A stretch of 64,000 nt of DNA from Cliona cf. orientalis (taxonomy: Eukaryota > Porifera > Demospongiae > Clionaida > Clionaidae): NCBI GenBank assembly GCA_963930775.1, contig OZ005689.1, positions 5,829,141 to 5,893,140 on the forward strand, written 5' to 3'. Position 1 is the first letter of the stretch, and every line of letters begins with the position of its first letter. Of the stretch, positions 4,852-64,000 are shown piece by piece. A program made the translations under genes and the position numbers. The notes beneath the pieces were generated by a model. It worked only from the letters and a program-made list of their open reading frames with translations, did not search any database and had not been told where the DNA came from.

Positions 4852-7800
4852 TTACACTTGGCTAACTACTACCTTCTCTTTGACTTGGGTGGCCTCTGCA
4901 GCATCAGATTTGCGTAGTGAGTTGGCCACTTTTTCTGGATCTGGTGGTGCAAGATCATGGGGTTGGTGCACCTCCACCACAGACTTGGTGGGCTTCACTG
5001 GCTCTCGCTGCTTCATTGGCACTTTATAGTCATGAGTATTAACAGGGCGGTCGATCATGTCCAAGAGTTCGTTGAATCGATGAATGTCATCATCAGGTGG
5101 TGGACTCCAATGACGTTCTAGTTTTGGTTTTGGATCAGCGTCAGTGAAGAGCCTGTCAATCATTCTACCAAGCTTTGTGTTATAAATCTTCGAAAAGACT
5201 GAGGTGTATGTGTAGACATGGTAGAGGATGATGAGCAGCAGTACAATGAATGTGATGATGACTGAAGTGGCAGCTGCTTTACGGGTGCTAGCTGGGCTAT
5301 CAAGAGAATACCAGGTGAAAATCACAAAGGATAGGATGTTAAAGTAGGAAAGTGTCTCAAGTACATCCACTGGCCATTTCCTGTACAGTCTGCTGCCAAA
5401 GAACTGCTTAAGGACAAGAATGCAACACAATGTAAAGCTGATAGCTGTAAGAGCAATAGTGGGGTCATTGGAAACATTTGTGGCAGCTACAAGGTACAAG
5501 ATGACACGAATAATCAGCAGCAGTCCAGTCCAGTAGCGTTGCTTGGGAGTGTAGGGCTTGTGGTAGGTTTCAATGAATGTTTGCATCTTAGAATTTCTTG
5601 ACCACTTGAAAATTCTCCACCTTGGAAGGTAGAGGAGCCACTGCCAGGAGAAGAGAAGAGCAGTATAAATCAGACCAACCAGGAGAAGGAGAACAGCTAC
5701 AATGAATAGAGGAATGTGCTTTCCGGAGACGAAGTTGACAGTTGCATCAGGGAGCCACAGCATTTCACTAGAGCCATCAGGATAATCAAGAATGCCAACT
5801 GATAGAGATTTAAAGGAAACTTGAAGAAACTTAGCATAGGAAAGCAGAAGAAGTGTAGCCAGAGTTGCCACTGGATCCTTCTTTCCAATGAGGTTAGAAA
5901 ATTTAGTAGAGTAGGAGCTGATGATGATGACTAAAACAACGAGAAGAATGATGTAGGCAGGAAAAGCTAACTGTAGCCATGTTTTAATGTAAGTGTCCAT
6001 TCCTGGAAAGTAGCAGGTGTCAATTCCTATTTCTAAATTCAACCATGATATGAACACAGTAATGAAGTTTCTTGTTTGAAATGGAAGTGAAATACTCTCG
6101 TTTGCATGTACAACATTGGCATAAAAGATCAGCCCATTTAGAGTTCCAACTGCAACAGTTACGTTGAGTAGTAACAATAAAGCCACCAGTGCTACGCCAG
6201 CTAGAATTGCAGCTATGGTGATGGCTATGAGTAGTGCAGGCCAGTAGCTAGGACATGAGAGACAACGTGAACTACCGAGAGAGAGGCTGAAACCAAGTTG
6301 GCAAGATCCACACAACAGAGATGACCGATTGAAGGCACACTGAATGTCGGCTCCATTTGGCTGGTTGAGATACATGTAAACTGGTGGATTGGTTATTAAA
6401 CAGTAGTCAAACAGACAGTTTGGGTAGACTAAGTAACCAGTTCGATCTGTATCATTGATGTAGGAAATCCAGGCTCTGGTTTGAGGCTGTTTGAGTAATA
6501 ATCCAGTGTGGCTGTCACACTGATGCACATATTGACTGATATTGCTATGGCAGTCACATGTACAGTTTGTGCGATTCACTTCTGAGACTTGTAATCCAAT
6601 TGGACAGCTGCAAGGAAGAAAGTGGATTTTTATTGTTGCTCTTGAGAGTTCAGCATCCTTACATGGACCATCTAAGGCGTAGAGGGACAATGTTTCAGAG
6701 TCATAGGGTGACACAACGTTGAATTTTAAATCAGTACACTTAGCAGGTATTTTCCTAGCCAGTTGGCCTTCAGCTAGACCACTCTCAGTGAAGTGGAGGG
6801 AGGTTTGGATAGTTGCATTAACTAGTTGGCCAACCTGATCAACAGCAACAACTGAGAGTGTGAATGTTTGTCCCTTTTTTACCTCAGTGTAGTATTGGTC
6901 GGTGCAGTCATTGCTTTGATCAGCATTGAAGCAAAGACACACTCGAACTGGTTCAGATGATACTGAGAGATTTATATCAATCACAGTTTCCATATAATAT
7001 ATAGGATATTCTAAACTGTAGTTATAGACGTAATGATATGTAGGAGTGGACACATTCTTAAAGTAAGCAATCCCGTCACCTCTGTCTTTAAAGTCACGTG
7101 AGTACTTTTTATGAACTTCAGCAAATGGACTCACAGTACATCTGTCTAGTAGTCCTCCATAGAGAGTGGAGCCAGAAATGTTAGCATTGTTTTGTGAAAA
7201 GTACATACTTTGTGTCATGAGACGTTGATCTTCAATACTATAGAGAGCGAGCACTTGAATGAAGCATTCTGTCTCTGTGTTACTAGCACATGCACCAGAG
7301 TTGGTATCATCATCCACATGTATTGCTCCACCGTAGTCTGCACTGTTGGCTGTGAATGTTGTTGTATTGCTGTCATTATTGTAATAAAACATCATGTAAT
7401 CATATTTCAGGATATAAAGTTTTGCATTGGCTTCCAGCGATATTCCACCTCCCCTCTCTGCTGCATTTCTACTTATATCTATTATTGCACCAGTGTATAC
7501 ATATTGGGGCCACTTAAAAAGTAAGGATGAAGCTGCCTTGATAGATGAGCCAATGGCATGGAGTCCTCCCCCTTTGCTCACTGCTGTATTTTTATGAAGT
7601 TCAAAGTAGCTTTCTTGTTGGCAGTTTAGTTCGCTACTTAAGAGGTAGACACCTCCTCCATTTCCAGTGGCTGTATTATGTGCTATAATTACGTCACCAT
7701 TCACATAGAGTTTACTCTCAGTGGAATGTATAGCTCCACCATTTTCAGCATAGTTGTGTTCAAGATTGCATTCTCCATCAAAAAATACGTTGCTCTGGAA

Positions 7801-9402
7801 TAGAGTCATTGCACCTCCTTCCTGGAGGTCTCCTGAGACAGTTTGTGATGGTTGGTTATTCACAAATGTAGCATAACCATTGAAAGTGATGTTGCTGTTG
7901 AATGCCAGTAATGATCCCAAATTATTTGAGAATGTTACAGTCGCATTTCCTGAGTCGTCTCCAATGAATTCTGAGTCTGATAAGTATATCACAGCATACC
8001 TATCAGCTATATTGTTGTCGATTAGGAAATAGCTATATGTATGCTGAATCACAGATCTGGATATTGCATGAATAATTGATCCAATAGGTGAAACGTTATT
8101 AGTGAAATTACTGCTAGCTATTGCCATATTACTGGATCTAGCACTCAGCACTCCTCCACTATCGGTGGCATTGTTATCATAAAATTTACTTGCTTCTACT
8201 GTGATAGTACTGTGGCTTGAATACAGTACTCCCCCCAAATAATTGGCATTGTTGTCATGGAATTCACTTGCTTCTATTGTGATGTTACTGCTGCTGGAAT
8301 CCAGTACTTCTCCATTGTAGGCACTGTTATCATAAAATTTACTTGCCATGGTCTCTATTGTGATAGTACTGCTGTTAGAATGCAGTAAATCTTCTACGAA
8401 GGCATTGTAATATTGTAATGCACTTGCTTCTATTCTGATTGCACTGATGGAAGCCAGTACTCCTCCCCAGTAGATAGCACTGTTATTGTGAAATTTACTT
8501 GCCTCTATTGTGATAGCACTGCTGCTGGAAGCCATTATTCCTCCACTGCTGGCACTGTTATCATGGAATTCACTTTCTTTTATTGTGATAGCACTGCTGA
8601 TGGAAGCTAATACTCCTCCTAGGAAGGCATTGTTGTCATGAAATCTACTTGCTTCTATTGTGATAGTACTGCTGCTGGAATGCAGTACACCTCCTCCAAA
8701 GCTGGCACTGTTACTAACAAACATATTACCACTCATGTTAATTATGCCGTCCCGTTCTGCAGATATAGCTCCACCGATGTCTGCTTTGTTATCTTCAAAT
8801 CTGCTTCGGCTGATATCAACTGTACTGTTGGTAGCAATAATTGCACCGCCAATTAATCCCTTAAACAAACAACCAGACTCAGGACCAAATACTTCAATAC
8901 ATCCTCTGTATGATCCTTTTCTGTTGGATAGAAAAGTGCTATTGACAATCTGTGCTGTTGTTTCAGTTAGCTCTAGTGCAGTTGAACTGTTGTCTTGACC
9001 TTCAAACCTTGTATCTTTGACCACAAATTCTTCAACATGTCTCACTTGATTTCCTCCACATCCAATAAACTCCAGGTTAGTGATGTGAATGCTCTGTGAT
9101 TGATAGAAATGCATGGATGAGTCATTTGTACATTTTATTTGTGCTGTTGAGTTCTCAGACTTCATTACAAAGTTTTCCGCATTTGATAATGTCAGGTTGA
9201 CATTGCTGAGGTGGTGTATTCCAGGGAGGAAGACGAGTGTGGTATTGGAGTGGAGGGAATGGCTCGAGTTAGTGGCAAACTGGGAGAGGGTTAGACATGG
9301 CTGCACAGTGCAATGGTCAGATGGGTTGGTTGTGATGTTGTAGACCTCACTGGCTGCTTGATTTAGAGAGCAGAGGATGAGTGATAGAGTCAAGAGATTC
9401 AT
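4852..9402 (-). CDS. Gene A: beta-helix ectodomain, multi-pass membrane protein (intact)
   Basis: This is an uninterrupted 1516-residue frame with an ATG followed by a signal peptide (residues 1 to about 18, MNLLTLSLILCSLNQ). Residues about 30-750 look like a parallel beta-helix of the polymorphic outer-membrane-protein type, with repeated GG-[AV]-[IL] turns and F-x-x-N steps. Residues 237-440 are eight rungs of the GGVLxSSSSTITIEASxFHD kind. Residues about 800-930 look like a beta-sandwich. Residues 929-1050 are Cys-rich (CSC, CTCDC, CGSC, CLSC). Nine or ten hydrophobic segments follow (about 1055-1083, 1086-1099, 1112-1130, 1143-1164, 1176-1200, 1229-1258, 1290-1308, 1314-1334, 1350-1367, 1376-1398). 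The tail, 1398-1516, contains SPPPDDD and ends in SQV. A cell-surface receptor or adhesion role is inferred; ligand and signalling are unknown. I know similar proteins only as uncharacterised invertebrate families. Gene E is a near-identical paralogue. Confidence 0.85.
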   Translation of the reverse strand: MNLLTLSLILCSLNQAASEVYNITTNPSDHCTVQPCLTLSQFATNSSHSLHSNTTLVFLPGIHHLSNVNLTLSNAENFVMKSENSTAQIKCTNDSSMHFYQSQSIHITNLEFIGCGGNQVRHVEEFVVKDTRFEGQDNSSTALELTETTAQIVNSTFLSNRKGSYRGCIEVFGPESGCLFKGLIGGAIIATNSTVDISRSRFEDNKADIGGAISAERDGIINMSGNMFVSNSASFGGGVLHSSSSTITIEASRFHDNNAFLGGVLASISSAITIKESEFHDNSASSGGIMASSSSAITIEASKFHNNSAIYWGGVLASISAIRIEASALQYYNAFVEDLLHSNSSTITIETMASKFYDNSAYNGEVLDSSSSNITIEASEFHDNNANYLGGVLYSSHSTITVEASKFYDNNATDSGGVLSARSSNMAIASSNFTNNVSPIGSIIHAISRSVIQHTYSYFLIDNNIADRYAVIYLSDSEFIGDDSGNATVTFSNNLGSLLAFNSNITFNGYATFVNNQPSQTVSGDLQEGGAMTLFQSNVFFDGECNLEHNYAENGGAIHSTESKLYVNGDVIIAHNTATGNGGGVYLLSSELNCQQESYFELHKNTAVSKGGGLHAIGSSIKAASSLLFKWPQYVYTGAIIDISRNAAERGGGISLEANAKLYILKYDYMMFYYNNDSNTTTFTANSADYGGAIHVDDDTNSGACASNTETECFIQVLALYSIEDQRLMTQSMYFSQNNANISGSTLYGGLLDRCTVSPFAEVHKKYSRDFKDRGDGIAYFKNVSTPTYHYVYNYSLEYPIYYMETVIDINLSVSSEPVRVCLCFNADQSNDCTDQYYTEVKKGQTFTLSVVAVDQVGQLVNATIQTSLHFTESGLAEGQLARKIPAKCTDLKFNVVSPYDSETLSLYALDGPCKDAELSRATIKIHFLPCSCPIGLQVSEVNRTNCTCDCHSNISQYVHQCDSHTGLLLKQPQTRAWISYINDTDRTGYLVYPNCLFDYCLITNPPVYMYLNQPNGADIQCAFNRSSLLCGSCQLGFSLSLGSSRCLSCPSYWPALLIAITIAAILAGVALVALLLLLNVTVAVGTLNGLIFYANVVHANESISLPFQTRNFITVFISWLNLEIGIDTCYFPGMDTYIKTWLQLAFPAYIILLVVLVIIISSYSTKFSNLIGKKDPVATLATLLLLSYAKFLQVSFKSLSVGILDYPDGSSEMLWLPDATVNFVSGKHIPLFIVAVLLLLVGLIYTALLFSWQWLLYLPRWRIFKWSRNSKMQTFIETYHKPYTPKQRYWTGLLLIIRVILYLVAATNVSNDPTIALTAISFTLCCILVLKQFFGSRLYRKWPVDVLETLSYFNILSFVIFTWYSLDSPASTRKAAATSVIITFIVLLLIILYHVYTYTSVFSKIYNTKLGRMIDRLFTDADPKPKLERHWSPPPDDDIHRFNELLDMIDRPVNTHDYKVPMKQREPVKPTKSVVEVHQPHDLAPPDPEKVANSLRKSDAAEATQVKEKVVVSQV

Positions 9403-9530: not shown

Positions 9531-10062
9531 ATTCTCGCTGGTCTGACTCTTAGCTTTGTAGATACTCACTTTTACTATTTGTCCCATGAGAGTCCTCATG
9601 ATTACAATAACTACATCCATATGCACACAGTAAATTAGAGAAAGAACCATAACGTAGTTACTGTAATCATGCGTCAACTCGTTCATGTAAACACACCTAT
9701 TTGTTATTCATCACTGGCATGTTTGAAATAATATTATATTGATAGTAAATGGATTATGATAATATAAGAGTCACAAAAATTATTACTGTCAATAATGGAA
9801 TCGATCGTTATACATGTGTACGTAGGGATGGCCTGGTTGTTACATACACATCATAATAATACATAATGCATTAGTATTACAAAAACAAATATGAAACAGT
9901 TTCAGAAATTCTAACCTTAACCATTGCGTTTTACAAGCTATTTTACACCTATAGAAAATCTATTGATAGGGTTATTAACATATGGAACTCGAGGGTAACA
10001 AAAATCGTGTTTTTGCAATCCCCATGCAAGACTTAGGTTCTGTATGCAGGGTTTCATCCAGT

Positions 10063-10099
<37 letters not shown>
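10063..10099. repeat. Poly(G) run of 37
   Basis: An uninterrupted run of 37 G lies in non-coding spacer just before ACAGGGGGGCAGC. The same run, again exactly 37 G, occurs at 19352-19388. An equal homopolymer length in two copies is hard to explain unless both are the same assembled molecule. The equivalent spacer upstream of gene E lacks the run because of a local deletion. Confidence 0.9.
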
Positions 10100-10101
<2 letters not shown>

Positions 10102-10400
10102 AGGGGGGCAGCTTCCCCTCCAAACTTTCTAGCTTCCCCCTAAACATTTTGACTTTAATTAAATTAAGCATCATAATATCACAATAAGTCACCGAAACTA
10201 ACCACTAGCATTTGTTTTTGATCAAAAATTACCCAAAGTAATCTGGAGGAATTAAAGAAATTCTCCTAAAATTATGCACCCAGGAAGTTGGCGTGCTGAA
10301 TACGCCCACTCATTTATGTCGCTTCCACCCCAAATTTTTGTCGCTAGATGAAACCCTGGTATGTACATTGATTGTGTAAAATTCTCCAGCTAGCCAATAG

Positions 10401-10718
10401 AGGAGGTAGGACAGACTTGATCTTTGGCTAATTGGTCACTAATTAAAGCACTAATATAGGCTTTAGTGAAGGATATTGCTAAGATTTTCGAACTCAGCAC
10501 TATTGCTTTAGTGGGGGAGCCCCTCTTAGTTAGCACTCCAGAGCAATTTTAGGTCATTGGAATGTTAATTACTTTCATTAACATTTCATTAACATTCCAT
10601 TGACCTAAAATTGCTCTGGAGTGCTACATAACAGGGGCTCCCCCACTAAATCAATAGTGCTGAGATGATCTTATTTTTAGTGACCTATTAGCCAAAGGTC
10701 AAGTCTGTCCTATCTCCT
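10401..10718. mobile_element. 318-bp foldback (MITE-like) element
   Basis: The outer ends, AGGAGGTAGGACAGACTTGA and its near complement ending in CCTATCTCCT, and the inner arms (CACTCCAGAGCAATTTTAGG against CCTAAAATTGCTCTGGAGTG) make almost the whole element one imperfect palindrome with a short centre near 10570-10590. It has no coding capacity. The same element is at 19690-20007 (assembly duplicate) and 47062-47383 (upstream of gene E). A target duplication could not be identified. A transcript would form a long hairpin, so a small-RNA source is possible, but nothing here demonstrates it. Confidence 0.7.
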
Positions 10719-10724
10719 TGCTAC

Positions 10725-10972
10725 CTAGTGGTAGCATAACTCTATGTATAAATAGAATGTTGTGTTGCATGCCATATACAGTATGTTAACCCTTGGCGCA
10801 TGCACTGTAGGCACAGTTACAAAAATCATTGACGCTGTTCATCGCCACCTAGTGGTAGCATAACTCTATGTATAAATAGAATGTTGTGTTGCATGCCATA
10901 TACAGTATGTTAACCCTTGGCGCATGCACTGTAGGCACAGTTACAAAAATCATTGACGCTGTTCATCGCCAC
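10725..10972. repeat. Tandem 124-bp duplication with TATA-like motif
   Basis: Two adjacent copies with a 124-base period each contain AGTGGTAGCATAACTCTATG followed by TATAAATAG and end near GACGCTGTTCATCGCCACC. The matching spacer upstream of gene E (about 47390-47515) has one copy, so the duplication arose on the A/C side or was lost on the other. The TATAAATAG has no supported gene downstream; the 60-codon frame that follows is not convincing. Confidence 0.7.
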
Positions 10973-13138
10973 CGCCTTCCCCACTCAGCTCACTGGCGAG
11001 CTTTCGATGGATATGCAGTGCATGAGAATTTTCCATGGGACAAGCTATTCACAAACGGGCATGTTTGACACACATAGCTAATATATTATATGGATCTTGA
11101 TCATGATCAGTTGGATTGTGAATATAACAAACTGGATCATTTGTACGTACTACTTGTCCCATGAGAGTTTCATAATTACAGTAACTGCAGCATCGATATG
11201 GGCACAGTAAAGCTGTATTATGTAGAGGAGGAACCACTAAAATTAGATAATGTTAAGGAGGTTTCAATGTGATTTAGAATACCCAAGGACTCTATAGAAT
11301 CTTGAGCGAAGTGAGGGTTCTATGAGAGCCCTGAGGTTTTATAAGGCACATAGAAACCGAATAGCTAAACAGCAAGTTTAAATCTTATAATTTTGTATTG
11401 CTAGAGTCAGAGGGCAAAACTTGTAGGTGTCTATGAAATGTTGTAGGTGACTATCACACATAGATACGTACCTGTCAGTATAGCCAATCACATTGCAGTA
11501 TTTATTATAGCTATGATCTAAGTACATGTAGTTACCATAATCATGCATCAGGTAGCTCGTGCAAACACGCCAGTTTGTTATTCGTACACTGATGTATTTG
11601 ACATAACAAGATTATACTGATAGTAAGCCGATTGTGATAACTGGAGTGTTATTGTAAATTAAACATCACACAAGTGGCACCAAACTTGCTGTCAACACAT
11701 CATGGAGTTGATTGATAGACTATACATAGGGATGGCCCAGTTGTTACACATATGTAGTATCTTGAGAATGGAACAGTTTTGGAATTTCTAACCTTGACCA
11801 TTGTGTTCTATGAGTGATTTCCACTTAAAAAAATCTATTGATGTGCACAGAAAGGGTCATTTACATATGAAATTCAGGGGGGACATGAATCAAATTTTCT
11901 CCTCCTTTCATTTCACAACAGTGTAACTCGACACCATGCATATCAACAGCTTGAGCTATACTTTTCATATCATTAATTTTCAGCAATAATTGTGTAAAAG
12001 CCCCGTGGTTTTCATAAGATTTGCCGTTTTTGAATTCGGCACCGTGGCAACTACACACATAGTGCAATGGATACCACACCTATGAGTCAGGTAATGCACA
12101 CACACTCAATTGTATCATCAGGAGTTCATGGATGGGGTGGCACCATGGAATTTCCCCACCTTTAGCCCATGTTTCCCCCTCCAGAATCATAGACTCTATC
12201 ATATACTCTGTATATACTCTGTATTAGTTTCCCCTCCCAGAAGTTTGGGTTCCCATGCTTGCAACCCCCACGACTATGTAGCTACGTGTACGTTCATAAT
12301 GCCTTTCTTCCAGTTTATCTACAAAATTAATAAGTAGGCAATAAAAGATAAAGTGGAGTTCCATGGCTGTAACAAAAAGCAGTAGTAATGATGGAAAACT
12401 AATAGTATTATTACTAGGAGACATCTCTACATTAGACTTAATAATGATGATGTACGTTGTATCCTAGTATTAGTTTTCTATCAATACCACTCTTGTTTGA
12501 CTGCCACCCCTACTTTTTCATATTATAATATTATATGTGATATACCATATTATGTATGATGGGACAGGTATAGTGTGCGTGTGCAACTGAGGCTGCCCAT
12601 AATTATTCTTCCAATCGCATGTGCAGCAAGGGGCAAAGCAATTGGTTTTATCCATCTTTCTATTTGTCTGTCTGTCAGCACAAGAATCGCCAGATCTCAC
12701 AATCTGCAGCAGTTACTGTAGGGTTTAGGCCATACAAAATAAGTTGTCTATTTCTCCATGCCAGACACGTCTACCTTTAAATCATAATAGGCACAGGGTC
12801 GTCACTTAAATAATGGCTGTACAAACAAATGCAATGTTTGTTTATGCTCATTGTCTCTAACAAGAATATCAAAATTTAATGCTTATTGATGACCTTTACC
12901 TACATGTATGCTAGGTTGTGCGCATGAGCAGAAATACATGGGGTGTGGTCGATAGGTGTGGCCAGTGTGATACAGTGTTTGTGACGCTCATGGACCTTAC
13001 CAAACGATTCTAAGTACGGTAAGACAAGTTTATCAATGATTTAAATGGATTCGTTGTACTTATGAGTCACTCAGATGCCTAGATCTCAAAATTTGGCAGT
13101 TATTGTGTTGACGACGGATGATAGAAAACTGACTGCTT

Positions 13139-13301
13139 TAAGGCCAGCTCTCAACATGATGCAAGGTCTTGTGTTCCATTAATTTTGTGGAATGCAAATA
13201 TTTATTTTGCAATTTTATACCATCTACTTGATTATAAATTATCGCATATCGCAAAATTAGCGCAACGCAAGACCTTATATCGTATTGTAAACCGGCCTTT
13301 A
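13139..13301. mobile_element. Foldback MITE, copy 2
   Basis: Same family as 3544-3706. Terminal inverted repeats TAAGGCCAGCTC and ACCGGCCTTTA flank a degenerate AT-rich centre. It is duplicated at 22428-22590 through the assembly duplication. Its 3' half alone survives in the gene F spacer (about 54077-54150), where a 1.2-kb deletion removed the other half. Confidence 0.65.
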
Positions 13302-13569
13302 TCCCATGCTGTGCATGCGTGCACAGGGTAACAATGAATATAATAATAATTATTATATTATGAAACACTGGCCAGGGCTGTCACGTGCAAACTCCCTGCA
13401 TCCTAGACACTGTCAGCTATGTGGATGTACATGTGTATACATGTACATGTAGCTGGCTTCTTATCCCTGCTACATGTTGCATCATGTAAATGTAGCAACT
13501 TTTAAGATTGAGCATGATAGTATGTATCAGCTGACTCCTCTTCCTAGTGTTCTCTCTCCCTCCCTCCCT

Positions 13570-13614
<45 letters not shown>

Positions 13615-14522
13615 CCTCTTCTCACCTCTTCTTCTCTAGCTCTCTCCATTCTCTATGTGTATATACCTTCTCCCTGTCATTCTCCTCTCCTTTCCTCCAC
13701 ATCTCTGTCTGGTCCCCCCCCCCCTTCCCCTTTTAAAGTTATAGCATTTCCCACCCTAGCTATAGCTCTGCTTGCTGTAGCTTTGCTGACTCTACCTGTA
13801 CATGCAGTTCTTCAATCTTAGAGCTCTGTAGAGGACATACCCTACATGCACATTATGGCATTAGCATCAATCTGCATGTACATGTGTACATATTATAGAG
13901 ACGACAATACAATAATTCTGGAATCATAATATGTACATATGCAACAAAAAATATTAAATTTTACTGTAACAGTTTTCTTATAATAATATTTTTATAGTCC
14001 GTATCATTACTAACAGAGGGTACAAAAGATGCACTTTCCCACAAGTTCAGAAGGCTCACAATTGGTCAAAATTGTAGTGCCATATGCACAAACGATGGTG
14101 CCATAGAGATGCATGCGCCAGGGATAATAATCAATGAACACTGGACAACATAACCAGGCCCTTGTACATACGCAGGGTGTATAAATTAATGAAACAAAGG
14201 CTCCATGAGTAACAATGTTAAGAACTGGCATTGAGCATGGGCCTCTAGAGCCCCTGCTCCTACTTGATACAAAGCATTAAAACAAAAACTTTAAAAAGGT
14301 AAAACAAGTCTAATATCACATGAAACACTACTAAATAATTTTCTCCTACTTATGCATGACTCTATTACAAAAATTAATTATCGATTCCTTATAATATTAT
14401 CTTACGGAAAATTAGCACACTGCTACTCTAATGTAGCATAAGTTTCTAATAAGCAATCCAGTTAATAGCAGCTATTCAGTTTCTATTTTAGTCTAGAGTT
14501 TTCTATAATTATACTCAAGATT

Positions 14523-17500
14523 TTATTTGACTTGGCTAACTGCTTCCTTCAGAATCTCTTTGACTTGGGCTGCCTCTGCAGCACCAGGTATGTGTAGTGA
14601 GTTGGCCACTTCTTCAGGATCTGGTGCTGCAAGGTGACGGGGTTGGTGCACCTCCACCACAGACTGGGTGGGCTTCACTGGCTCTTGCTGCTTCACTGAC
14701 ACTTTATAGTCATAAGTGTTGACAGGGCGATCAATGATGTCCAAGAGCTCATTAAATCGATGAATGTCATCATCAGGTGGTGGGATCCAGTGACGTTCAG
14801 GTTTTGGTTTTGGATCAGCATCAGCAAACAGTCTGTCAATCATTCTACCAAGCTTTGTGTCATAAATATTTGAGAAGACTGAGGTGTATGTGTAGATATG
14901 GTGGAGGATGATGAGCAGCAGGGTGATGAATGTGATGATGACTGAAGTGGCAGCTGCTTTACGAATGCTAGCTGGGCTATCAAGAGAATACCAGGTGAAA
15001 GTTATAAAGGATAGGATGTTGAAATAGAAGAATGTCTCAAGTACATCCACTGGCCATTTTCTGTACAGTCTGCTGCCAAAGAGTCTGCAAAGAACAAGAA
15101 TGCAACACACTGTAAAGCTGATAGCTGTAAGAGCAATAGTGGGGTCATTGGAAACATTTGTGGCAGCTACAAGATACAAGATGACACGAACAATCAACAG
15201 CAATCCAGTCCAGTAGCGATACTTGGGAATGTAAGGCTTGTGGTAGGTTTCAATGAACGTTTGTATCTTTGGATTCCTTGACCACCTAAAAATTCTCCAC
15301 CTTGGAAGGTAGAGGAGCCACTGCCAGGAGAAGAGAAGAGCAGTGTAGACCAGACCAACCAGGAGAAGGAGAACAGTTGCAATGAATAAAGGAATGTGCT
15401 TTCCAGAGAGATATTTGACAGTTGCATCAGGGAGCCACAGCATTTCACTGGAGCCATCAGGATACTCCAGAATGCCAACTGATAGAGACTTAAAGCAGAT
15501 TTGAAGAAGCTTAGCATAGGAAAGCAGAATAAGTATAGCCAGAGTTGCCACTGGATCCTTCTTTCCAATGAAGTTAGAAAATTTACTAGAGTAGGAGCTG
15601 ATGATGATGACTAAAACCACGAGAAGAATGACGTAGGCAGGAAAAGCTAACTGTAGCCATGTTTTTATGTAAGTGTCCATTCCTGGAAAGTAGCAGGTAT
15701 CAATTCCTAGTTCTAGGTTAAGCCATGATATGAACACAGTAATGAAATTTCTTGTTTGAAATGGAAGTAGAATACTCTCGTTTGCATATACAATATTGGC
15801 ATAAAAAATGAGCCCATTTAGAGTTCCAACTGCAACAGTTACGTTGAGTAGTAACAATAAAGCCACCAGTGCTATACCAGCTAGAATTGCAGTTATGGTG
15901 ATGGCTATGAGTAGTGCAGGCCAGTAGCTAGGACATGAGAGACAGTGTGAACTACCAAGAGAGAGGCTGAAACCAGGTTGGCAAGATCCACACAACAGAG
16001 AAGCCCGGTTGAAGGCACACTGAGCATCAGCTCCATTTGGCTGGTTGAGGTCAACTGGTGGACTGTTTGATAAGCAGTAGTCAAAAGGACAGTTGGCGTA
16101 AACTAAATAACCAGTTTGGTCTATGTCATTGATGTAGGAAATCCAGGCTCTTATTTGAGGCTGTTTGAATACTGATCCAGTGTGGCTGTCACACTGATGC
16201 ACATATTGACTGATATCGCTATGGCAGTCACATGTACAGTTTGTGTTGTTTACTCCTGATTTTTGAAATCCAATTGGACAACTGCAAGGGAGAAAGTGGA
16301 TATCTATTGTTGCCCTAGAGAGTTCAGTATCCTTGCATGGACCATCTGATGCATATAGGGACAAACTTTCAGTAACATGGGATGAAACAATATTGAATGT
16401 CAAATTAGTACACTCAGCAGGTATTCTCCTAGCCAGCTGGCCTTCAGCTAGACCACTCTCAGTGAAGTGGAGGGAGGTTTGAATGGTTGCATTAACTGGT
16501 TGGCCATTCTGATCAACGCACATGTACCAGAGTTAGTATCATCATCCACATGTATTGCTCCACCGTAGTCTGCACTGTTGGCAGTGAATGTTGTTGTTGT
16601 ATTCTTATCATCACTGTATTCATAATACATGTAATTATCATACTTCAGGAAGTAAAGTTTTGCATTGGCTTCCAGCGATAATCCACCTCCCCTCTCTGCT
16701 GCATTTCTACTTATGTCTATTATTGCACCATATTGTGGCCATCCAACCATATAAATAGATGAAGCTGCCTTGATAGATGAGCCAATGGCGTGGAGTCCTC
16801 CCCCTTTGCTCACTGCTGTATTATTATAAAGTTCAAAGTAGCTTTCTCGATGACAGTTTAGTTCGCTAGTTACGAGGTAGACACCTCCTCCATTTCCAGT
16901 GGCTGTGTTGTATGCTATAGTTATGCCACCATTCAGACACATAGAGTTTACTCTCAGTGGAATGTATTGCTCCACCATTTTCAGCATTATTGTGTTCAAG
17001 ATTGCACTCTCCATCAAAATATACATTGCTCTGAAATAGAGTTATTGCACCTCCTTCTTGGAAGTCACCCGAGACAGTTGGTGATGGTTGGTTATTCACA
17101 AATGTAGCATAACCATTGAAAGTAATGTTGCTGTTGAATGCAACTAATGATCCCAAGTTGTTTGAGAATGTTACAGTAGCATTTCCTGAGTCATCTCCAA
17201 TGAATTCTGAGTCTGATAAGTATATCACAGCATATCCATCAGCTATGTTGTTATCGATTAGGAAATAGCCATATGTATGCCGAATCACAGATCTGGATGT
17301 TGCATGAGTAATTGTTCCAATCGGTGAAATGTTATTAGTGAAGCTACTACTAGCCATCGTGATGATGGTGGATCGAGAGTACAGTACTCCACCACTATTG
17401 CTGGCATTGTTATCACAAAATTCACTTGCTTCTATTGTGATAGTGCTGCTGCTAGAATCCAGTACTCCTCCACTGCTGGCATTGTTATCACAAAATTCAC

Positions 17501-18728
17501 TTGCTTCTATTGTGATAGTGCTGCTGCTAGAATCCAGTACTCCTCCACTGCTGGCATTGTTATCACAAAATTCACTTGCTTCTATTGTAATAGCACTGCT
17601 GCTGGAATACAGTACTCCTCCATAGCTGGCACTGTTGTCATGGAATTCACTTGCTTCTATTGTAATAGTACTGCTGTAGGAATCCATTACTCCTCCTTCA
17701 TCGTTGGCACTGTTGTCATGAAATTCACTGCTTGATTCTATTGTGATAGTACTGCTGCTGGAATATAGTACCCCTCCTCTCCTGGCACTGTTATTATGAA
17801 AGTCACTTGCTTCTATTATGATATTACTGCTGCTGGAATACAGTACCCCTCCACTGCTGTAACTGTTATAATGAAATTCACTTGCTTCTATTATGATAGT
17901 ACTGCTCATGGAATATAGTACTCCTCCTCTTGTACTACTGAAGGGAAACGGTACTAATCCTCCACTGCTGTCACTATTATCATGAAATTCACTTGCTTCT
18001 ATTGTGATAGTACTGCTGCTGGAATACAGTACCCCTCCTCTCCTGGCACTGTTATTATGAAAGTCACTTGCTTCTATTATGATATTACTGCTGCTGGAAT
18101 ACAGTACCCCTCCTATATTGGTGACAGTGTTATTATGAAATTCACTTGCTTCGATTGTGATAGTACTGCTGATGGAATACAGTACTCCTCCACTGCTGTA
18201 ACTGTTATCATGAAATTCACTTGCTTCTATTGTGATAGTACTGCTGATGGAATACAGTACTCCTCCTCTCCCGGCACTATTATTATGAAAGTCACTTGCT
18301 TCTATTGTGATATTACTGCTCCTGGAATACAGTACCCCTCCTATATTGGTGACAATGTTATTATGAAATTCACTTGCTTCGATTGTGATAGTACTGCTGA
18401 TGGAATACAGTACTCCTCCACTGCTGTAACTGTTATCATGAAATTCACTTGCTTCTATTGTGATAGTACTGCTGATGGAATACAGTACTCCTCCTCTCCC
18501 GGCACTATTATTATGAAAGTCACTTGCTTCTATTGTGATATTACTGCTCCTGGAATACAGTACCCCTCCTATATTGGTGACAATGTTATTATGAAATTCA
18601 CTTGCTTCGATTGTGATAGTACTGCTGATGGAATACAGTACTCCTCCACTGCTGTAACTGTTATCATGAAATTCACTTGCTTCTATTGTGATAGTACTGC
18701 TGCTGGAATACAGTACTCCTCCTCCCGT
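14523..18728 (-). pseudogene. Gene B: truncated, frameshifted family member (probable assembly copy of gene C)
   Basis: This is identical to the 3' part of gene C, including the same two frame-breaking lesions. A 4-base insertion lies at about 16936-16941 (CATTCAGACACATAGAG against CATTCACATAGAG in gene A). A deletion at about 16516, roughly 442 bases relative to gene A, removed the segment between the last beta-helix turn and the beta-sandwich. The gene runs into the N gap in the middle of the rung repeats, so the first 235 or so residues are missing. Because the copy abuts a placeholder gap and matches the other side base for base as far as I can see, I read it as gene C assembled twice. 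Confidence 0.8.
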
Positions 18729-18928
18729 NNNNNNNNNNNNNNNNNNNNNNNNNNNNNNNNNNNNNNNNNNNNNNNNNNNNNNNNNNNNNNNNNNNNNNNN
18801 NNNNNNNNNNNNNNNNNNNNNNNNNNNNNNNNNNNNNNNNNNNNNNNNNNNNNNNNNNNNNNNNNNNNNNNNNNNNNNNNNNNNNNNNNNNNNNNNNNNN
18901 NNNNNNNNNNNNNNNNNNNNNNNNNNNN
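18729..18928. other. Assembly gap, 200 N
   Basis: Exactly 200 consecutive N, a typical placeholder size. Left of it the sequence stops inside the rung repeats at CTCCTCCCGT. Right of it the sequence starts inside spacer at GAAAGAACCATAACG. The last 9089 bases before the gap (9640-18728) equal the first 9089 after it (18929-28017), so the gap is better explained as an unmerged contig overlap than as missing DNA. Open frames drawn across the N are meaningless. Confidence 0.95.
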
Positions 18929-19351
18929 GAAAGAACCATAACGTAGTTACTGTAATCATGCGTCAACTCGTTCATGTAAACACACCTATTTGTTATTCAT
19001 CACTGGCATGTTTGAAATAATATTATATTGATAGTAAATGGATTATGATAATATAAGAGTCACAAAAATTATTACTGTCAATAATGGAATCGATCGTTAT
19101 ACATGTGTACGTAGGGATGGCCTGGTTGTTACATACACATCATAATAATACATAATGCATTAGTATTACAAAAACAAATATGAAACAGTTTCAGAAATTC
19201 TAACCTTAACCATTGCGTTTTACAAGCTATTTTACACCTATAGAAAATCTATTGATAGGGTTATTAACATATGGAACTCGAGGGTAACAAAAATCGTGTT
19301 TTTGCAATCCCCATGCAAGACTTAGGTTCTGTATGCAGGGTTTCATCCAGT

Positions 19352-19390
<39 letters not shown>

Positions 19391-22858: not shown

Positions 22859-22903
<45 letters not shown>

Positions 22904-49563: not shown

Positions 49564-49880
49564 ATTTGGCAGGGCATTTAAACATTACGTTTGGCAGGGG
49601 GTCGAGGTATTCAAACATTACATTTAATACACTCGGCGGGGGTCGTGGCATTTAAACATTGAAATACGTTTGGCAGGGGGGTCGTGGCGTTTAAACATTA
49701 AATAGTATGCCAGGGGGTTGTGGCATTTAAACATTAAAATATGTTTGGCAGGGGTATCGTGGCGTTTAAACATTAAATAGTTTGGCAGGGGGGTCATGGC
49801 GTTTAAACATTAAATGGTTTGGCAGGGGGGTTGTGGTATTTAAACATTAAATAGTTTGGCAAGGGGGTTGAGGCACTTTA
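49564..49880. repeat. Minisatellite, nine units of about 36-43 bp
   Basis: Units follow TTTGGCAGGGGGGTCGTGGC and then GTTTAAACATTAAATA. The G run varies from three to six, and single bases vary in most units. Starts are near 49564, 49590, 49633, 49669, 49708, 49744, 49782, 49818 and 49854. It is non-coding and lies in the 3' half of the satellite-bearing element. Confidence 0.8.
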
Positions 49881-50170
49881 TATACATTATACACAATGTC
49901 ATACAGTATAATGTTGCACATAATATATTATCTGTATAGAGTGTGTATATAGCGCATATAATGTGACAACTGTAGACACTTTAGACACTGTAGACACTTC
50001 AGACAAGATTATAAGTTTAAAGACTGAATTTATACAATATTATGTGACATCATCTAATGTATGTATACAAGGTATCTAATATTGGAGAACCATCTACAAT
50101 TCACTTTAGACAGTCTACAGTCTATAGTTATCGTATAATGTGTCTAATCTGCCAATATTGCACCCTTATG

Positions 50171-50379: not shown

Positions 50380-50525
50380 CAACGGATTTCAGTTGCGTTC
50401 GAATTTCCGTTCCGTAACGAGTTCCACGGGATTTCGCGCGGCATGCACGCATAATATTGCGCATACGCGCTTATTGGTACAGCGTCTAAAATTTCAAATT
50501 CTGAGCAAAATTAATTGCGAGCACA

Positions 50526-51515
50526 ATGTCCGCCGAGCCAGGGAGAAAACGCGCATATTCCACTGACATTCGATTGCGCATCGTCTATCAACGAATAGGA
50601 ATGGGTCTCACATTCAACACCATTGCAAGACATTTGAATGTTGCTACCAGCACTGTTCATCGAATATTCAAACAGTTCGAATTGAATGGAGATATTGTTG
50701 CTGCAAGTCCTCGAAGTCACAGACCAGAGATTAGACTGCTAGATGAACGTTGTGAGTTAATTGTAATAGGTTTGATTCTAGAGAGTCCAACACTGTACTT
50801 GCATGAAGTGTGTCAGCAAATTCAAGAGATTACCTCCCTCTCAGTTTCTCAGGCAACCATCTGTAGACTTCTTCAGCGCTATGGCTTGACCCGTAAAAAG
50901 GTTAAGCAAGTTGCACTGCAGAGATGCTATATGCTCCGGGGAGCATTTATGGCTCAATGTTCTCTGTTTTCAAGAGAACAACTTGTCTGGCTTGATGAAA
51001 CGGGCTCCAATTCAAAAGATCATATTCGTAGATTTGGCTACGCAATCAGAGGTACCACTCCAGTATCACATCGTTTGCTTATAAGGGGGAAGAGAGTCAA
51101 TGCCATTGCTGCACTTGCATCAGATGGAATCATTGCAGTAGATACAGTGGTAGGGACGGTCGATGGACAGACCTTCTTTGATTTCCTCCGGGGAACACTT
51201 ATTCCACGTATGAGAGCTTTCAACGGAAGTAATCCTAATTCAGTCATCATAATGGACAATTGTTCTATCCATCACATCCAAGAAGTAAAACAACTACTCA
51301 ACCAAGCAGGAATTCTAGCTCTCTTTCTTCCTCCCTACAGCCCCGATTTAAACCCTATTGAAGAAGCCTTCAATTATGTCAAGTCATATTTGAGAAAGCA
51401 TGATATTCTATTGCAGTCTGGAGCCCCAATGCCAACCATTGTTGAAGCTGCTTTTGAGTCAATAACAATTAATCAGTGCAATTCATGGATCACTGACTCT
51501 GGGTATCCAATGTAA
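50526..51515 (+). CDS. Tc1/mariner-type DD34E transposase
   Basis: 329 residues, starting at ATG in ACAATGTCCGCC. Residues about 8-65 form a helix-turn-helix of the paired-like type (FNTIARHLNVATSTVHRIFK). The catalytic triad is D157 (VWLDETG), D244 (IIMDNCSIHH) and E279 (YSPDLNPIEEAF), with 34 residues between the second Asp and the Glu. Length and motifs are normal for an IS630/Tc1 transposase. It should bind the terminal repeats and cut and paste the element into TA sites. An ATTAAA near 51573 could serve as polyadenylation signal. All catalytic residues are present and no frame break is seen. Confidence 0.93.
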   Translation: MSAEPGRKRAYSTDIRLRIVYQRIGMGLTFNTIARHLNVATSTVHRIFKQFELNGDIVAASPRSHRPEIRLLDERCELIVIGLILESPTLYLHEVCQQIQEITSLSVSQATICRLLQRYGLTRKKVKQVALQRCYMLRGAFMAQCSLFSREQLVWLDETGSNSKDHIRRFGYAIRGTTPVSHRLLIRGKRVNAIAALASDGIIAVDTVVGTVDGQTFFDFLRGTLIPRMRAFNGSNPNSVIIMDNCSIHHIQEVKQLLNQAGILALFLPPYSPDLNPIEEAFNYVKSYLRKHDILLQSGAPMPTIVEAAFESITINQCNSWITDSGYPM

Positions 51516-51633: not shown

Positions 51634-52884
51634 TCACATTTTTTTAATGTCACCGAGGATAGTTTCCTTTAATTCGTCATACTGGGTCTGGTCAATTGCT
51701 CCTGCATTCAGTAACTCATGCCACTTGCTCAACTGGTCAATGCACTGGGTTCTTAAACCGACTCGCTTAGATGGTGAATTACAGGTAGGTCCACTGGGTG
51801 AGGCAGCTACTTTGTCATTTATTTGAACCTTTTTCTTGCACTTCTTAAAGAATGGGAAGTCTGGTGGCTCCTCATAGGATGAGTGTTTACCAACATTGAG
51901 CATATGAGCCCAACAATTGAGCTTCTCCACCGAGTATGCATCACCATGTTTCTCCTTCAGCTTCTTAATAATATCCTCCACTTCATTGATACTTTTTGCA
52001 ATAGCTTGCCGCTTGCCAGGTGGTGGAGCATCAGTATTGGAAGCTTGCTTACGCTTACGTTGTGGAGGAGGATTAAAACCGGTCTGCTCACCAACATCAC
52101 CATAGCACCACAATAAAATTTCCTGCTTACGTTTATAAAGGACGTACATTTCTTTGAGATCATCATCGGTAGTTAGCTCTCTGAGCTTTCCTTTTTGTCC
52201 GTGTCCAGGTTCAATATATCCTAGTACGTCATCCTTCATCCCACTAATCCCTTCCTTAACACATCTTACGAGATCACTGAGTGTAGAAAACTGATGCCGA
52301 TTGACAAGATGCTTTATTGAGTAGATGGACTTCTTTAAACTGTTGATCACTTTCACGTTATAAGTAAACACCTGGTCTTTCCCCACAACAGAAGTAACCC
52401 TGGTTGTGTTGCGTGACTGTAATTGTAGAAAATTACGGGTCAGTGATATATACTTGAGTACTGGATACACATAGTATAGCTACTACTCTGCATCAAAAAC
52501 GCATGTGTGTGGTAATCGTGTCTATATAATGCACATCAAGGGTGAAAAACTAACTTGGCAAACCGTCTCCCCTGCTGTCTGCCTGCCACACTACATAACC
52601 TCATGACTTAGCTACCTATTACCACCTTACCGTACCTCTACTTCATATCCAGCCGGATCATATGAGCGCGTGATGGGTACAGGTGGCGGGTAGAAGCCTG
52701 TTTGAGCATAATACATTGGATGAGGTGGTTGCGGAACAAAATCTGGAGCTCCCGGGGCCAGGCTGGTGCCGCTGCGATAAGGATAATCGTAGTACGTATA
52801 ATCAGGATAGTGCCCTGCTGCCTCATAACGGCCTTGTTCATACTCGCCCTCATCTTCCGAAGACGTCCCCAGCTCCGGCTCCAT
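51634..52884 (-). CDS. Second transposon gene, two exons, function unknown
   Basis: Exon 1 (52884-52636, 83 codons, start MEPELGTSSEDEGEYEQG) is acidic and Tyr/Pro-rich and ends at a donor, GAG|GTACGG. Exon 2 (52416-51634) starts after a good acceptor, TTCTACAATTACAG, in the same phase, giving about 343 residues; the 219-base intron has stops in frame. Exon 2 has a GYIEPGHGQKGKLRELTTDD region, a Lys/Arg-rich stretch (QRKRKQ, GKRQAI), a YSVEKLNCWAHML segment followed by PPDFPFF, and a C-terminal helix pair (LSKWHELLNAGAIDQTQYDE) resembling SHOCT-type short domains. I have an impression of similar unnamed proteins in other marine invertebrates but cannot assign a function. An accessory DNA-binding or regulatory role is a guess. 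The splice sites are read by eye. Confidence 0.65.
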
Positions 52885-55668: not shown

Positions 55669-58600
55669 TTAGACTTGGCTGAATGCTTCCTTCTCTTTGA
55701 TTTGGGTTGCCTCTGCAGCACCAGGTATGTGTAGTGAGTTGGCCACTTCTTCAGGATCTGGTGCAGCAAGGTCACGGGGTTGGTGCACCTCCACCACAGA
55801 CTGGGTGGGCTTCACTGGCTCTTGCTGTTTCACTGGAACTTTGTAGTCATGAGTATTAACAGGGCGGTCAATCATGTCCAAGAGTTCATTGAATCGATGA
55901 ATGTCATCATCAGGTGGTGGGCTCCAGTGACGTTCAGGTTTTGATTTTGGATCAGCGTCAGTGAAGAGCCTGTCAATCATTCTACCAAGCTTTGTGTTAC
56001 AAATCTTTGAGAAGACTGAGGTGTATGTGTAGACATGGTAGAGGATAATGAGCAACAGTACAATGAATGTGATGATGACTGAAGTGGCAGCTGCTTTACG
56101 GGTGCTAGCTGGGCTGTCAAGAGAATACCAGGTGAAAATTACAGAAGATAGGATGTTGAAGTAGGAAAGTGTCTCAAGTACATCCATTGGCCATTTCTTG
56201 TACAGTCTGCTGCCAAAGAACTGCTTTAGGACAAGAATGCAACACACTGTAAAGCTGATAGCTGTAAGAGCAATAGTGGGGTCATTGGAAACATTTGTGG
56301 CAGCTACAAGGTACAAGACAACACGAATAATCAGCAGCAGTCCAGTCCAGTAGCGTTGCTTGGGAGTGTAGGGCTTGTGGTAGGTTTCAATGAATGTTTG
56401 CATCTTAGAATTTCTTGACCACTTGAAAATTCTCCACCTTGGAAGGTAGAGGAGCCACTGCCAGGAGAAGAGAAGAGCAGTATAAATCAGACCAACCAGG
56501 AGAAGGAGAACAGCTGCAATAAATAGAGGAATGTGCTTTCCGGAGACGAAGTTGACAGTTGCATCAAGGAGCCACAGCATTTCACTAGAGCCATCAGGAT
56601 AATCAAGAATGCCAACTGATAGAGATTTAAAGGAAACTTGAAGAAACTTAGCATAGGAAAGCAGAATAAGTGTAGCCAGAGTTGCCACTGGATCCTTCTT
56701 TCCAATGAGGTTAGAAAATTTAGTAGAGTAGGAGCTGATGATGATGACTAAAACAACGAGAAGAATGATGTAGGCAGGAAAAGCTAACTGTAGCCATGTT
56801 TTAATGTAAGTGTCCATTCCTGGAAAGTAGCAGGTGTCAATTCCTATTTCTAAATTCAACCATGATATGAACACAGTAATGAAGTTTCTTGTTTGAAATG
56901 GAAGTAGAATACTCTCGTTTGCATGTACAACATTGGCATAAAAGATCAGCCCATTTAGAGTTCCAACTGCAACAGTTACGTTGAGTAGTAACAATAAAGC
57001 CACCAGTGCTACGCCAGCTAGAATTGCAGCTATGGTGATGGCTATGAGTAGTGCAGGCCAGTAGCTAGGACATGAGAGACAACGTGAACTACCGAGAGAG
57101 AGGCTGAAACCAAGTTGGCAAGATCCACACAACAGAGATGACCGATTGAAGGCACACTGAGTGTCGGCTCCATTTGGCTGGTTGAGATACATGTAAACTG
57201 ATGGATTTGTTGGTAAGCAGTAGTCAAAAGGACAGTTTGGGTAGACTAAGTAACCATTTAGATCTGTGTCATTGATGTAGGAAATCCAGGCTCTTGTTTG
57301 AGACTGTTTGAATAATAATCCAGTGTGGCTGTCACACTGATGCACATATTCACTGATAGTGCTATGGCAGTCACATGTACAGTTTGTGTTGTTCATTCTA
57401 GATTCTTGTAATCCAATTGGACAACTGCAAGGAAGAAAATGGATTTCTATTGTTGCCCTAGAGAGTTCAGCATCTTTGCATGGACCATCTGAGGCGTAGA
57501 GGGACAAAATTTCAAAGGCATTGGGTGAAACAATGTTGAATGTCAAATTAGTACACTCAGCAGGTAATTTCCTAGCCAGCTGGCCTTCAGCTAGACCACT
57601 CTCAGTGAAGTGGAGGGAGGTTTGGATAGTTGCATTAACTGGTTGGCCGATCTGATCAACAGCAACAACTGAGAATGTTACTGTTTGTCCCTTTACAACC
57701 TCAGTGTAGAAGTGGTCATTGCAGTCATTGTTTTGATCAACATTGAAGCAAAGGCACACTCGAACTGGATCAGATGATAATGAGAGAGTTGTGTCAATCA
57801 CTTCCATATGTCGTTGATATCCTGAACTGTAGTCATAGATGTAATATGCAGGAGTGGATACATCCTTAAAGTAAGCAATCCCATCACCTCTGTCTTTAAA
57901 GTCATGTGGGTACTTATTGTGAACTTCAGCAAACGAACTCACAGCACATCTGTCTAGTAGTCCTCCATAGAGAGTGGAGCCAGAAATGTTAGCATGATTT
58001 TGTGAGAAGTGAATGCTTTGTGTTCTGAAATATTGAGGTTCATAACTATGAAGAGCAAGTACTTGAAAGAAGCATTCTGTTTCTGTGTTGCTAGCACATG
58101 TACCAGAGTTGGTATCATCATCCACCATTTTCAGCATAGTTATGTTCAAGATTGCATTCTCCATCAAAAAATACGTTGCTCTGGAATAGAGTCATTGCAC
58201 CTCCTTCCTGGAAGTCACCTGGGACAGTTTGTGATGGCTGATTATTCACAAATGTAGCATAACCATTGAAAGTGATGTTGCTGTTGAATGCCACTAATGA
58301 TCCCAAGTTGTTTGAGAATGTTACAGTAGCATTTCCTGAATCGTCTCCAATGAGTTCTGAGTCTGATAAGTATATCACAGCATACCTATCAGCTATGTTG
58401 TTATGAATTAGGAAATAGCTATGTGTATGCTGAATCACAGATCTGGATGTTGCATGAATAATTGCCCCAATTGGTGAAACATTACTAGTGAAGTTACTAC
58501 TAGCTATTGTGATATTACTGGAGATAGAATATAGTACTCCTCCTCCATACCTGGCACTGTTATCGTGAAATTCACTTGCTTCTATTGTGAGATTACTGCT

Positions 58601-62581: not shown

Positions 62582-62710
62582 CTCCCTTTCTGTACATATG
62601 TATGCGTGGGGTACTGGTAACTATGATTATGCATGAAACACTGGCCAGGGCTGATACATCCACACCTCCTGCATCTTAGACATAGCTACATGTATGTGGA
62701 TGTACAAGTA

Positions 62711-63131
62711 CAGTGTCAGCAGTGCAAGAGGAGTACTGTATTCCAGCAGCAGTACTATCACAATAGAAGCAAGTAAATTCCATGATAACAGCGCCAGCAC
62801 TGGAGGAGTACTATAATATTCCAGCAGCAGTAACATCACAATAGAAGCAAGTGAATTCCATGACAACAGTGCTGGCACTGGAGGAGTACTATATTCCAGC
62901 AGCAGTAATATCACAATAGAAGCAAGTGAATTTTCTGATAATAATGCCACCAATAGAGGAGGAGTACTATATTCTGGTTCCAGTAATATCACAATAGCTA
63001 GTAGTAGTAACTTCACTAATAACGTTTCACCGATTGGAGCAATTATTCATGCAGCAGCCAGATCTGTGATTCAGCATATATATGGCTATTTCCTAATCGA
63101 CAATAATATAGCTGATAGGTATGCTGTGATA
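62711..63131 (+). pseudogene. Inverted fragment of a family gene (four rungs)
   Basis: On the plus strand this reads as four beta-helix rungs (SSSSTITIEASKFHDNSAS and similar), then the NVSPIGAIIHA segment and YFLIDNNIADRYAVI. It ends abruptly at 63131, where the next residues in the family would be YLSDSEF. An extra TAA codon sits in the first rung junction (GTACTATAATATTCC against GTACTATATTCC). It is opposite in orientation to all other family genes and lies within the 3' spacer of gene G. No start, membrane domain or tail is present. Confidence 0.85.
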
Positions 63132-63667
63132 AAATACTGTGAATTTAAGAGAAATCTATGTGAGGCATGCATAGACATGGAGTGCTACCACCTACACTTG
63201 GTTTTACTGTACTTATTCTAACAAATTCTCATAATGTTTATATACGGAGCGATTGATGACCTTTACCTGAAAAACAGTTTTCAACCATTAAAGTTTTTTT
63301 CAATGTGTTCTATAGGTCTAACTAAGAATAAGTACGGTAATACACTCTGATTTGGTTACATATCATGAACATTATTTAAGATATCCCTTGCGCATGCGTG
63401 GGGATAAAACAAAAACTTGATCAGTGAGTAACAAAGTTAAGTACTGGAATTGAACACCCAATATCACATGAAACACTACTACATGACTTATACACAACTC
63501 AAAAAGGGCTTTTTGATTCCTTATAACATTATCATGCCAAAATTAGCACACTGCTACTCTAATGTAGCAGAAACTGTAAGTTTCTAACAAGTAATCCAGT
63601 TAATAGCAGCTACTCAGTTTCTATGTTAGTCTAGAGTTTTCTTTAATAATTATACTCGAGATTTGCG
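63132..63667. other. Spacer downstream of gene G
   Basis: About 63132-63370 is unmatched and without a gene. From about 63385 the conserved 3'-flank block is recognisable in shortened form (CTTGCGCATGCGTGGGG, then AATATCACATGAAACACTAC) and leads to the gene G stop codon. Confidence 0.5.
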
Positions 63668-64000
63668 TTAGACTTGACTAACTGCTTCCTTCTCTTTGAC
63701 TGGGGCTGCCTCTGCAGCACCAGGTATGTGTAGTGAGTTGGCCACTTCTTCAGGATCTGGTGCTGCAAGGTCACGGGGTTGGTGCACCTCCACCACAGAC
63801 TGGGTGGGCTTCACTGGCTCTTGCTGCTTCACTGGCACTTTATAGTCATAAGTGTTAACAGGGCGGTCAATCACATCCAAGAGTTCGTTGAATCGATGAA
63901 TGTCATCATCAGGTGGTGGGCTCCAGTGACGTTCAGGTTTTGGTTTTGGATCAGCATCAGTGAATAGTTTGTCAATCATTCTACCGAGCTTTGTCTTATA
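63668..64000 (-). CDS. Gene G: family member, C-terminal tail only (runs off the window)
   Basis: The frame is open from the stop at 63668 to the window edge, giving the last 110 or so residues of a family protein: YKTKLGR, SPPPDDDIHRFNELLD, PVKQQEPVKPTQSVVEVHQP and the SQV end. The apparent start in this window is an internal Met. The tail is of the D/F type (PRDLAAPDPEEVANS) rather than the A/E type. Whether the rest of the gene is intact cannot be seen. Confidence 0.85.
   Translation of the reverse strand, partial: YKTKLGRMIDKLFTDADPKPKPERHWSPPPDDDIHRFNELLDVIDRPVNTYDYKVPVKQQEPVKPTQSVVEVHQPRDLAAPDPEEVANSLHIPGAAEAAPVKEKEAVSQV

Follow-up and report, generated by a model that had tools for sequence, protein, structure and literature searches.

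A 64,000-base window of the Cliona cf. orientalis genome carries a head-to-tail array of very large genes whose products join a predicted N-terminal beta-helix, built of short repeated rungs, to a stalk rich in Cys, some nine membrane helices and a tail. We read these genes, with roughly even confidence, as members of a large, lineage-expanded and diversifying family of putative surface receptors. Support for this reading comes from the protein architecture (by profile matches and a structural model), the copy number of the family, the variation in rung number, a contrast in evolutionary rates between rungs and membrane domain in most gene pairs, gene conversion between the genes designated A and F, and a recurrent motif in the tail. 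The window spans C1:5829141-5893140 of a genome of 216.8 Mb in 149 contigs, and stop-to-stop frames and their translations were read throughout. Five distinct family genes, two open and three broken, lie on its minus strand, together with the edge of a sixth gene and an inverted fragment:

4852-9402, minus strand: gene A, an open single-exon frame of 1516 amino acids
23812-28722, minus strand: gene B/C (one gene, see below), broken by frame breaks at two places, near 26155-26330 and near 25737-25821; longest rung block, 487 amino acids
27247-28013, minus strand: rung array in B/C, a 228-base three-rung unit in 3.4 copies with 98% matches
33862-37918, minus strand: gene D, broken (in-frame stop at 37061-37063, frame break near 34310-34488); shortest rung block, 70 amino acids
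42019-46569, minus strand: gene E, open, 1516 amino acids; near-identical paralogue of A
55669-about 59640, minus strand: gene F, broken by a deletion and frame breaks
62710-63131, plus strand: inverted rung fragment with reverse matches to A, B/C, E and F
63461-64000, minus strand: 3' end of member G, which extends beyond the window as L004

In gene F, the deletion and a frame break lie near 58118-58191, and a further break is placed near 59284 because homology continues upstream. Gene A encodes, in order, a signal-like N-terminus, the beta-helix, the Cys-rich stalk, about nine membrane helices and the tail. An earlier sequence-only reading of this DNA had counted at least five full-length members, two intact and three broken, as well as a partial member, the flank of a further one and an inverted fragment. 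This count stands for the open genes A and E, for B/C, D and F with their frame breaks, stop or deletion, and for the flank and the fragment; the partial member falls away as an assembly duplicate.

Ectodomain and rung number

Gene C matched the Pfam profile Beta_helix with an E value of 1.1e-42 (145.8 bits against a cut-off of 25.9) and Chlam_PMP with 6e-14 (51.1 bits against 20.6). The Chlam_PMP cut-off was likewise passed by all five full-length relatives scanned (L031, L038, L043, L044 and L045), by L031 narrowly (20.9 against 20.6 bits). Gene A scores below that cut-off (19.1 against 20.6 bits) and passes only the one for POMP_repeat (19.0 against 15). Judged by profile matches above curated cut-offs, the ectodomain is thus predicted to form a right-handed parallel beta-helix of the chlamydial Pmp type, in agreement with the fold that had been proposed earlier; for C this prediction comes from Beta_helix and Chlam_PMP, for A from POMP_repeat only. 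In gene A, 30 N-glycosylation sequons fall in the ectodomain, 3 in the membrane part and 0 in the tail, and Cys residues number 12 in the helix, 16 in the stalk, 5 in the membrane part and 0 in the tail.

Flanked on either side by constant sequence, the rung block is 222 amino acids long in both A and E; it reaches 487 in B/C, whereas D has 70 and F 173. The rung number is therefore variable, as had been claimed. Among relatives outside the window, L038 has more rungs and L033 a shorter ectodomain than A. In B/C, the recurrence of the three-rung unit at 98% matches indicates that rungs have been gained by recent tandem duplication.

Membrane domain and tail

Hydropathy averaged across 43 rows of our 45-row membrane-domain alignment (A4) gives 9-10 hydrophobic segments, the number expected from the sequence-only reading. 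Most rows of this alignment were chosen by the motif PVATLATL, and seven of its 10 invariant columns lie inside the motif; these 10 columns are hence not independent evidence. An AlphaFold model of the domain (375 residues, 45 paralogue rows) reached a predicted local distance difference test score of 87.7 and a predicted template modelling score of 0.84; eight of its helices are long and several are short, among them 53-69 and 77-85, which sit in hydrophobic stretches, and a beta-hairpin occupies 166-180. The model, together with positive loop charge, suggests nine crossings with the N-terminus outside and the tail inside. No Pfam or PDB sequence relative of the domain was detected, the model had no significant fold match in the PDB, and no match to a family of known role emerged; a close match to one with an unrelated role would have counted against the earlier reading. 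Families of the 7tm or GPS type were absent among matches at E values up to 1 from 45 membrane domains and were also unmatched in Pfam scans of full-length proteins; an assignment to the adhesion G-protein-coupled receptors (class B2) is accordingly not borne out.

The tail carries the pattern [TSA][YQSHF]S[VIY][VI][ED] in 37 of 40 distinct, mutually related sequences, compared with a rate of 0.0009 in shuffled tails. The other three, gene A included, have the near variants PTKSVVE, PTESVVE and PTQSTVE; gene E, outside the 40, has PTKSVVE as in A, which the regular expression does not accept. Related sequences were recognized by eye in six of seven further deep tails, with none in L090. The natural reading of this PTxSVVE-like motif is a putative conserved docking site. 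Its x position is Tyr in L036, L044-L047, L085, L087, L088 and L091, and Q or K in the window genes. Immunoreceptor tyrosine-based inhibitory and switch motifs (ITIM/ITSM) in receptor tails follow the consensus [SILV]xYxx[ILV] or TxYxx[VI], and by this consensus ITIM/ITSM-like fits occur in L036, L044/L085/L087, L045 and L091, with none in the window genes. The stretches concerned read TTYSIV, VTYSYV, ITYSVV and VTYTEI in L036, L044, L045 and L091. Tyr-bearing and Tyr-less tails could possibly represent paired receptors.

Rates of change and gene conversion

Non-sister genes, aligned in windows of 100 codons, share 74-84% identity across the rung region (codons 201-400) and 88-99% across the membrane region (codons 1001-1400). 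In the tandem pair L044-L085, the rungs have an omega of 0.90; the value falls to 0.35-0.41 for the remaining helix, 0.37 for the stalk and 0.125 for the membrane domain. For L085-L087, a comparison restricted to the first 1013 residues because L087 is a broken copy with an in-frame stop, rung omega is 0.70. The likewise broken L086 was excluded from pairwise rates. Within the rungs, core positions gave omega values of 0.40, 0.46, 0.18, 0.10 and 0.12 in the five of six pairs with values, compared with 0.81, 0.75, 1.13, 0.48 and 0.54 at non-core positions of the same pairs; these pairs share genes, and the differences are given without significance values. The rung regular expression catches only part of the rungs, 4-8 per reference gene giving values, and the pair L031-L032 was dropped. 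Membrane-domain omega alongside this comparison was 0.125-0.29 (five computable pairs). Over a set of 31 sequences that includes broken genes such as F (465 pairs, 433-460 finite), the membrane domain had the lowest median omega, 0.235, followed by the stalk (0.307) and the tail (0.387). In most pairs tested, the membrane domain thus changes more slowly than the rungs, and the diversified ectodomain of the sequence-only reading is recovered in most comparisons, with A/E and L044/L087 as exceptions.

The membrane domain has also been exchanged between genes. Outside this domain, A and E agree with each other against F at nearly all informative sites (in codons 201-300, 71 A=E sites versus one E=F site). 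At codons 1101-1200, the informative sites are 0 for A=E, 8 for A=F and 3 for E=F, seven consecutive A=F sites fall inside 31 bases, and identity is 99.0% for A-F versus 96.3% for A-E. Here A resembles F more closely than E, the reverse of the relation seen outside the membrane domain. The site pattern is direct evidence of exchange between neighbouring genes, with gene conversion between A and F reaching part of this domain. Gene F is 96-99% identical to A over codons 1001-1400. The homogenized membrane domain noted earlier is therefore explained in part by conversion.

Family size and distribution

The DNA signature of the PVATLATL motif has 258 exact matches genome-wide, and a reversed control pattern has 0. 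Scoring of 90 of 1661 first-look candidates yielded at least 92 membrane-domain matches, and 122 Beta_helix stretches lie above the curated cut-off, several per gene and many sharing frames. Members are located on many other contigs; the family is genome-wide and broader than the array in the window. Among the matches listed, 51 of 92 rows lie in frames of at least 1250 amino acids without a stop inside the match and 16 of 92 have such stops, which, with three of the five window genes broken, bears out the many pseudogenes proposed earlier. On the same contig, again among the matches listed, neighbours span 5.698-5.910 Mb; three plus-strand members lie at 5.698-5.717 Mb and the next at 5.814 Mb. 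In members L031-L041 and L043-L045 one frame stays open from the signal-like N-terminus to the stop, and their coding part is therefore intronless; L042 is cut off at its 5' end.

A second large cluster of the superfamily lies at about 3.24-3.70 Mb of G000:C2, with members on both strands and the PVATLATL signature spelled differently in DNA on each strand. Divergent membrane-domain members, L073 and L083, were found at 7.90-7.93 Mb of G000:C3, with 43% and 35% identity to gene A, respectively; both carry the LGSNPVATLATL version and may connect to relatives in other animals.

Assembly duplicate at the gap

The partial member of the earlier reading, gene B, lies in an exact repeat that meets the only run of N in the window:

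9640-18728: first copy of the exact repeat, 9089 bases, ending at the gap (unmerged contig overlap)
14523-18728, minus strand: 'gene B', that is, gene C seen twice
18729-18928: assembly gap of 200 N
18929-28017: second copy of the exact repeat, starting at the gap

The two copies are identical over all 9089 bases and both abut the gap. Because both stop exactly there, we take them for two overlapping contig ends that were scaffolded without merging; in a genuine tandem duplication, the two boundaries would not be expected to coincide with the gap. The duplication is therefore an assembly artefact, B and C are a single gene, and B is ruled out as a separate family member. The break falls within the rung array of B/C, which recurs at 17958-18724 in the duplicate. 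Left as it is, the unmerged overlap at 9640-28017 will inflate gene counts of the assembly.

Relation to known protein families

Chlamydial Pmps (PF02415, TIGR01376) are surface proteins that share with the window family FxxN and GG[AV][IL] rungs, a beta-helix and a variable rung number. In one account, their repeat regions have 9-25 rungs, with FxxN/GGA motifs buried and loops exposed in AlphaFold models, and the proteins end in an autotransporter beta-barrel (PMC10715098), whereas the window family continues into a Cys-rich stalk, about nine helices and a tail. The autotransporter barrel PF03797 gave no match in our Pfam scans, and the C-terminal part is helical in the model. Since this barrel is absent, the family is not a Pmp, and membership among the chlamydial Pmps or type V autotransporters was ruled out. 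To our knowledge, the Pmp-like proteins of trichomonads are the closest eukaryotic case. These are reported to be an expanded set with Pmp repeats, a membrane anchor and endocytic tail motifs, and to increase adhesion; Trichomonas vaginalis has 48 of them, with a C-terminal transmembrane domain and an ATPITK motif there, and their retention inside the cell, in internal compartments, is also reported (PMC6701047). Both families are thus eukaryotic and expanded and join Pmp repeats to a membrane anchor and a tail, but the trichomonad proteins apparently have a single segment and no multi-pass domain, whereas the window family has about nine helices, another tail motif and hundreds of genes. With 9-10 hydrophobic segments, a single C-terminal transmembrane segment of the trichomonad type was rejected for the window family.

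The SRCR, SpTransformer and sponge aggregation factor families are large invertebrate families thought to serve recognition; the window family is also large and differs by its beta-helix ectodomain and polytopic anchor. The aggregation factor is made up of Calx-beta and Wreath domains. In Pfam scans of full-length proteins, neither SRCR (PF00530) nor Calx-beta was matched. Vertebrate odorant and V1R repertoires number hundreds of receptor genes that lack introns, sit in clusters and include many pseudogenes, a layout to which that of the window family is similar by analogy; the latter has a very large ectodomain, no 7tm match and no homology by the tests run. A description of the family was not found in the open-licence literature.

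Alternative explanations

Several observations weigh against a diversifying receptor family. The open genes A and E carry identical rung blocks and differ at 0 nonsynonymous rung sites, so that the open pair of the window does not illustrate diversification, and the much closer pair L044-L087 has a rung omega of 0.23, without rung excess. One pair out of five has a non-core omega above 1, without a significance test, and relaxed constraint would explain this value. Because the tails are related, the motif count is no probability. The lack of rung change between A and E, together with the broken copies (three of five window genes, 16 of 92 listed rows), would suit a neutral birth-and-death family in which tandem duplication produces copy number and rung variation as a side effect and neither serves diversification. 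Against such a family stand the 51 of 92 listed rows in long frames without a stop in the match and the structured constraint, namely core below non-core omega in five pairs and membrane domain below rungs in L044-L085, and we hold it to be distinctly improbable. That the array in the window is mainly an artefact of haplotypes or contig overlaps is highly improbable: the exact duplication at the gap is one such artefact, and A and E, at 99-100% identity in most windows, are close enough for alleles, but A, B/C, D and F diverge mutually by up to 25% in rung windows and vary in rung number, and members are present on many other contigs.

Other functions can be proposed for the same architecture. 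The proteins might be structural adhesins or coat proteins, with the beta-helix acting as matrix glue or a stiff spacer free to vary in length and the membrane domain as a mere anchor. The wide variation in rung number inside one cluster would fit, as would the increased adhesion reported for the trichomonad proteins, likewise with Pmp repeats (PMC6701047); about nine helices at a median omega of 0.235, and the conservation of the tail motif, exceed what a mere anchor needs, and we regard this alternative as unlikely. Were the membrane domain instead the working part, with the beta-helix as lever or sensor, the family would comprise mechanosensory or chemosensory channels or transporters; its status as the most conserved part, and the short helices modelled in hydrophobic stretches, which could be re-entrant, speak for this improbable option.

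Other features of the window and genome

Further elements of the window lie between or beside the family genes:

29691-33353, minus strand: LINE-like element (endonuclease and reverse transcriptase), between genes C and D
48073-49399 and 49638-49889: satellite-like tandem arrays whose units measure 151 bases (8.7 copies, 92%) and 37/75 bases
50505-51512, plus strand: DDE_3 / Tc1-mariner-like transposase frame (E value 1.1e-29)
51634-52479, minus strand: 281-amino-acid frame whose C-terminus weakly resembles SHOCT (18.5 bits, below the cut-off of 27)

Elsewhere, the genome holds three wnt loci, which mark it as that of an animal; an apparent resemblance of the family's membrane domain to uncharacterized sponge and cnidarian proteins would suit a demosponge. 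The genome also holds, at G000:C19:4508728-4580694, an array of intron-bearing cathepsin L-like genes, one exon of which contains GSCYAFSATGALEGA; kinship to silicatein is not established.

A possible recognition repertoire

For a diversifying receptor family, surface location, ligand binding, signalling and a role in recognition are what we infer from these findings. In such a receptor, the right-handed beta-helix would stand outside the cell, raised on the Cys-rich stalk, with rungs of about 25 residues forming a ligand-binding face; the nine-helix domain would serve as anchor, and the tail, through its PTxSVVE-like motif, would couple the receptor to cytoplasmic partners. Specificity could shift as rungs are gained or lost by tandem duplication of 75- or 228-base units and by substitution at non-core rung positions, while gene conversion and purifying selection would hold the membrane module uniform. 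A likely use would be the recognition of microbes or other cells in an animal without adaptive immunity. The pattern of a recognition family put forward from the sequence is thus largely upheld in its evolutionary features, the partial member apart, and recognition itself keeps the standing of an interpretation. A stronger version, which we think unlikely, would make this a new class of animal receptor, with a beta-helix on a polytopic domain of new fold and a specificity that shifts as whole rungs come and go; some 260-400 single-exon copies (about 260-400) would then be the chief repertoire of an early-branching animal for telling self from non-self or sorting microbes, with Tyr-bearing tails of inhibitory type and Tyr-less tails as paired receptors.

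How animals without adaptive immunity separate self, symbiont and pathogen is an open question, and we know of few candidate receptor families in early animals with enough size and variability. The present family combines size, structured variability and a conserved coupling module, and it supplies testable parts in a rung block, a tail motif and a membrane domain for which paralogues alone give a confident model. As that membrane domain has no detected counterpart in Pfam or the PDB, a solved structure would probably add a new membrane-protein family.
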